Below the pieces are notes generated by a model. The model had not been told where the DNA came from and searched no databases. It worked only from the letters and a program-made list of their open reading frames with translations. Positions 4,739 through 5,264 of a stretch of DNA of 64,000 nt are shown in pieces; the first letter of the stretch is position 1, and the number at the start of each line of letters is the position of its first letter. Source of the DNA: Methanohalophilus mahii DSM 5219 (GTDB lineage: Archaea > Halobacteriota > Methanosarcinia > Methanosarcinales > Methanosarcinaceae); the NCBI RefSeq assembly GCF_000025865.1, contig NC_014002.1, positions 372,001 to 436,000 on the forward strand. The letters run 5' to 3'. Made by a program: the position numbers and the translations under genes.

Positions 4739-4752
4739 TTGTTTATATCTGG
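4739..4752. promoter_or_regulatory. Shared TATA box between hyuAB and the PAP2 gene
   Basis: The sequence TTGTTTATATCTGG reads as a TATA box on both strands. On the minus strand it lies about 26 bases before a predicted start at 4720 for hyuAB. On the plus strand it lies about 25 bases before the ATG at 4770, predicting a leaderless mRNA for the PAP2 gene. This is inferred from spacing only. Confidence 0.45.
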
Positions 4753-4769
4753 CTTACAATCTTCTGTCA

Positions 4770-5264
4770 ATGCCATTTTAGGAGTTTGATTTACAATTAT
4801 TTCATTACATAAATTCCATTGAGGCTCTTGACTTTATCATGGTTCCCCTGACAATAGCGGGAAATCTGTTTATATGGTTGTTAATCGCTGCATTTCTATA
4901 TATATTTAAAGGTAAGTCCTATGCAGTCTATTACTTGTCACTTTTGTTAATAATATGGCTGGTTGTTTATGGGATGAAATCGTTATTCATGGTTCCCAGA
5001 CCAGAAACAGGACGTATCCTGGTGGAAGCAGCCGGTAATTCATTCCCCAGCGGCCACACAGCACTGGCTTTTGGAACTGCCACTTTTTTGCATCCAGTGT
5101 CAGGCAAATCAAGTTATATGTTCTGGATATTTGCCATGATGATGGGAATCAGCCGTATTACAGTAGGTGTACATTATCCTTCGGATGTTGTAGCAGGTGC
5201 AATAGCAGGTATTATTCTGGGTTATGCAGGTTTGCTTTTGTATCCTGCATTTGTAAAAAAGTAA
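4770..5264 (+). CDS. PAP2-family membrane phosphatase with in-frame amber codon at position 4
   Basis: The PAP2 phosphatase triad is complete. Counting from the internal ATG at 4839, it shows KxxxxxxRP (K47, R54-P55), PSGH (70-73) and SRxxxxxHxxxD (S105-R106, H112, D116), among about five hydrophobic segments. Relatives act on lipid pyrophosphates such as polyprenyl diphosphate. ATG 4839 gives only 141 residues. The same frame stays open upstream with PAP2-like residues (EFDLQLFHYINSIEALDF) back to a TAG at 4779-4781, and three codons before it is an ATG at 4770, correctly spaced from a TATA box. The product would be M-P-F-(amber)-E-F-D. The TAG may be decoded as pyrrolysine, or translation may begin at 4839 or at a non-standard codon. 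Confidence 0.8.

Follow-up and report, generated by a model that had tools for sequence, protein, structure and literature searches.

An in-frame UAG is decoded by the pyl system as pyrrolysine (Pyl) in the methylamine methyltransferases MtmB, MtbB and MttB, where the residue is catalytic and ancient. Few natural Pyl proteins besides these enzymes have backing from more than one genome. Neutral replacement by Pyl has been proposed for Thg1, the tRNA-His guanylyltransferase of Methanosarcina acetivorans (PMC2933860), and Pyl read-through of an in-frame amber codon was previously proposed for the citrate synthase of Methanohalophilus mahii (PMC3017947). Here, we describe a PAP2-family membrane phosphatase gene of M. 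mahii whose fourth codon is TAG. The gene lies in a stretch of 64,000 nucleotides (hereafter, the window) corresponding to positions 372001-436000 of the M. mahii SLP genome (2,012,424 bp).

We estimate a probability of about 0.86 that this TAG is a sense codon decoded as Pyl in an intact PAP2 gene with a leaderless mRNA, Pyl being a neutral replacement. Such a gene would resemble those of MtmB, MtbB and MttB in relying on the pyl system to decode an in-frame UAG; unlike them, it has a UAG that replaces a non-catalytic serine, is confined to one genus, and encodes a protein that matches PAP2 families alone, with no match to the MtmB, MtbB or MttB fold. The Thg1 case was physically verified and has been described for M. 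acetivorans only, whereas the PAP2 TAG is found at codon 4 in six species and is read from sequence. The citrate synthase case is alike in concerning a candidate Pyl read-through in the same organism, but its TAG is unshared among congeners, whereas the PAP2 TAG is common to all carriers of the gene. LpxE (6ebu) and undecaprenyl-diphosphatase-like PAP2 enzymes use the ordinary genetic code, unlike the M. mahii protein, which very probably works like, and is, a natural Pyl-containing protein. The main texts of the M. mahii genome paper and of the Pyl prediction paper name no PAP2 or phosphatase candidate (their supplements lay outside this search), and we found no literature report of Pyl detected in this PAP2 protein.

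From position 4770 on the plus strand, the window reads ATG CCA TTT TAG GAG TTT GAT, and beyond the TAG (4779-4781) the frame is open to a TAA at 5262-5264. With the TAG taken as a residue, the gene (4770-5264) is a single open frame of 164 amino acids; both the letters and this translation bear out the sequence-only reading, which had described an amber codon at position 4 followed by a continuous PAP2 frame. Under the standard code, the longest open reading frame (ORF) at the locus is 4839-5264, encoding 141 amino acids. The protein matches PF01569 over residues 53-159 with 61.5 bits, against a gathering cut-off of 27.2, and the family profile aligns over residues 6-156 to LpxE 6ebu, the solved structure closest in sequence (E 9.4e-24). 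All three catalytic motifs, KSLFMVPRP (4977-5003), PSGH (5046-5057) and SRITVGVHYPSD (5151-5186), are intact and fit KX6RP, PSGH and SRX5HX3D. By these features the gene encodes a predicted integral-membrane phosphatase of the PAP2 superfamily, and it counts as intact, not broken, because its codon-4 TAG is most probably read as Pyl. The cut-offs of the undecaprenyl-diphosphatase NCBIfam equivalogs SepP and PRK11837 were missed (51.9 of 250 and 35.7 of 229 bits, respectively). An AlphaFold2 model built from four close sequences reached a predicted local distance difference test score (pLDDT) of 46.7 and was left unused.

The gene was found in six of eight Methanohalophilus genomes, including those of M. 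mahii, M. euhalobius WG-1MB, Methanohalophilus sp. RSK and M. profundi SLHTYRO. Each copy contains one internal TAG, at codon 4 in every case, preceded by ATG CCA TTT or, in one genome, ATG TCA TTT. Besides a natural Pyl protein, the sequence-only reading had offered a nonsense mutation or a sequence error. The second is ruled out by the occurrence of the TAG in six genomes. That the gene is a decaying pseudogene would accord with the meaning of an in-frame TAG under the standard code, and also with the fate of the citrate synthase gene, which bears a TAG in M. mahii and survives as remnants in some congeners. However, the same TAG is present in six independently sequenced species, the motifs are intact, and the frames are otherwise under selection, with a ratio of nonsynonymous to synonymous change (pN/pS) of 0.33 in codons 24-140 across the six species, so that a broken or misread gene is extremely improbable. 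In the two remaining genomes (G003 and G007), there is no PAP2 gene beside purF and no match elsewhere, and purF itself is only ~77% identical.

Outside the genus, codon 4 is a sense codon. Alignment of 14 homologues from other genera places serine at this position in 12, cysteine in one and threonine in one, with no stop. The orthologue from a sister genus (g7, which we take to be Methanolobus, an unconfirmed guess) has a start ATG that aligns with ATG 4770 and a TCA serine codon at codon 4; hyuA is divergent upstream and purF convergent downstream of pap2, in the same order and orientation as in M. mahii. In another genus (g5), codon 4 is TCG within TTTTCGGAATTTGAT, a single base away from the TTTTAGGAATTTGAT of Methanohalophilus; gene order around this homologue is not shared within the stretch examined. 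A protein tree groups the TAG carriers in one clade (support 100/100) and requires one change. The best reading of this distribution is a single change of codon 4 to TAG that predates the divergence of the six Methanohalophilus species, with serine, or else some other small residue, as the ancestral state. With the TAG in six species and an ancestral serine in syntenic orthologues, the gene offers a dated, testable case of a sense codon that became a Pyl codon and was then kept.

If Pyl is inserted at codon 4, the codons behind it should be translated from ATG 4770. The N-terminal segment EFDLQLFHYINSIEALDFI (codons 5-23; 4782-4838) shows five synonymous changes and one nonsynonymous change among the six species, giving a pN/pS of 0.04 compared to the 0.33 of the codons downstream. 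In a binomial test, a nonsynonymous count this low has a probability of 0.001-0.01, depending on the neutral share assumed. Furthermore, N15, S16 and D21 are unchanged over 20 homologues, and codons 5-23 align without gaps to the N termini of orthologues, the LpxE 6ebu alignment beginning at residue 6. Because of this purifying selection and of the alignment to the N termini of relatives and of LpxE, codons 5-23 are almost certainly translated. Upstream of the TAG there are only three codons, of which the ATG (4770-4772) is invariant in the six species and lines up with the ATG at which orthologues from other genera start, while codon 2 is proline or serine. Residues 1-46 include neither lysine nor arginine.

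Alternatively, translation could start at ATG 4839 (codon 24; 4839-4841), leaving 4770-4838 as a non-coding leader in which the TAG has no meaning. As the sequence-only reading had it, this is where translation must start if the TAG is not read through. Between the TAG and 4839, M. mahii has no in-frame ATG, GTG or TTG. The ATG lies upstream of the main catalytic PAP2 domain (53-159), and a standard gene caller would be expected to choose it. Set against this are the protein-like evolution of codons 5-23 and their alignment to translated N termini in orthologues and LpxE 6ebu. In addition, the ATG matches an internal methionine in many orthologues, and the weak GAGG upstream of it is limited to M. 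mahii, the other five species having CAGG; a Shine-Dalgarno-like sequence conserved across the six species is thus absent. Taken together, these observations make a sole start at 4839 distinctly unlikely. Other possible starts between the TAG and 4839 lack conservation, a TTG at codon 8 occurring in a single species. A frameshift around the TAG is unneeded, since the downstream codons continue in the frame set by ATG 4770.

The promoter region fits initiation at 4770. A TATA-box-like element, TTTATATC (4742-4749, plus strand), is centred ~24-25 nt upstream of the ATG, close to the 25 bases previously given for it. Within it, TTTATAT is unchanged across the six species, and the sister genus g7 has a similar TTTATC 29 nt upstream of the homologous ATG. 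Because this element sets the expected transcript start at ~4770, the leaderless model is plausible, and the pap2 mRNA probably begins at ATG 4770.

The genome is equipped to decode UAG. M. mahii carries a pylSBCD operon, whose PylS, PylB, PylC and PylD all score above NCBIfam cut-offs, and a tRNA-Pyl gene (anticodon cta) adjoins pylS. The combination named as refuting by the sequence-only reading, a sense codon in a near relative and a genome without pylTS, does not hold here. PylS is encoded in all eight Methanohalophilus genomes. The classical Pyl gene mtmB has one in-frame TAG in the same genomes, and Pyl in MttB of M. portucalensis has been shown by liquid chromatography-tandem mass spectrometry (PMC4928046). 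Over 464 kb of the M. mahii genome (the window and L066-L085), TAG terminates three of 270 non-overlapping ORFs of at least 200 amino acids, compared to ~30% expected from base composition; this figure is an estimate because a simple rule of length served to call the ORFs. Of these three, two belong to interrupted genes (mtmB and an MFS transporter), and the third, an ABC-type ATPase, has a TGA four codons further on. The near-absence of TAG as a terminator suggests that UAG is read efficiently and, with the PAP2 case, supports a view of UAG as mainly a sense codon in Methanohalophilus. Kivenson and co-workers (Science, 2025) have reportedly described archaea in which all TAG codons stand for Pyl. 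No structure resembling a pyrrolysine insertion sequence (PYLIS) was found in the mRNA behind the TAG (RNA fold of 4770-4890, z 0.32). Such an element is not required, its structure being conserved in mtmB and mtbB only (PMC3639795).

The shared TAG, the selection behind it, the full pyl set and the scarcity of TAG terminators strongly favour a natural Pyl protein among the options of the sequence-only reading, as far as genomic comparison can tell. Some observations weigh on the other side. There are only five variable positions in codons 5-23. Synonymous sites are conserved throughout the 5' third of the gene, and another cause may share in the nucleotide conservation: pS is 0.10 in codons 24-60 (4839-4949) and 0.22 in codons 61-140, and nucleotide identity alone is therefore not to be over-read. 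Finally, a reporter in M. acetivorans showed UAG suppression of 20-30% only (PMC2933860), and UAG may accordingly also terminate in M. mahii.

This last point leads to a reading with two products, in which some ribosomes stop at UAG, releasing the tripeptide MPF, and others insert Pyl, with the result that PAP2 output would track the supply of Pyl-tRNA as a methylamine-linked gate. M. acetivorans provides a documented case of partial suppression, stopping as early as codon 4 in a leaderless mRNA would be cheap, and the TAG has been kept in all carriers across the genus. Nevertheless, the scarce TAG terminators of M. mahii suggest efficient reading, and the fold of 4770-4890 revealed no regulatory RNA structure; we therefore regard such a gate as unlikely.

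In the reading that we favour, UAG is instead decoded efficiently as Pyl by the following route. A leaderless mRNA would begin at ATG 4770. PylBCD would make Pyl, PylS would charge tRNA-Pyl (CUA) with it, and the charged tRNA would decode UAG at codon 4, translation then running on to 5264. An ancestral serine codon would have turned into TAG once before the six species split and been retained since, neutral drift most likely allowing Pyl to replace serine in cells with efficient UAG reading. Codon 4 precedes the first helix, itself probably interfacial, the catalytic motifs lie well away from it in the sequence, and the ancestral residue was small and polar; neutral replacement, as proposed for Thg1, offers the simplest explanation and is more probable than a catalytic role. 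It is a good deal less likely that selection keeps Pyl at codon 4, whether because it gates synthesis of a membrane lipid phosphatase according to Pyl-tRNA supply, and hence methylamine metabolism, or because its side chain has a function at the membrane interface. Genes of this kind probably carry a false annotated start, which here would leave the protein 23 residues short, or are listed as pseudogenes.

The interrupted MFS transporter gene (L074:11155-12297, minus strand; G000:C1:1011155-1012297) has its TAG at codon 289, after which the frame continues. The codon is TGG (Trp) in five congeners and the TAG is private to M. mahii, making it either a second candidate Pyl codon or a recent nonsense mutation. 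One shorter M. mahii gene ends in a tandem TAG TGA. In M. mahii, the citrate synthase gene has a single in-frame TAG; it is intact and free of stops in G003 and G004, and only C-terminal remnants of it are left in G001, G002, G005 and G006. Within pap2, motif 2 varies: M. mahii has PSGH, the other five Methanohalophilus have PSSH, and orthologues from another genus show PSAH, PSTH or PSIH. Towards the 3' end of the gene (5250-5264), M. mahii lacks one G found in its congeners, and because of this its protein ends in VKK instead of VRKVKRFRID.
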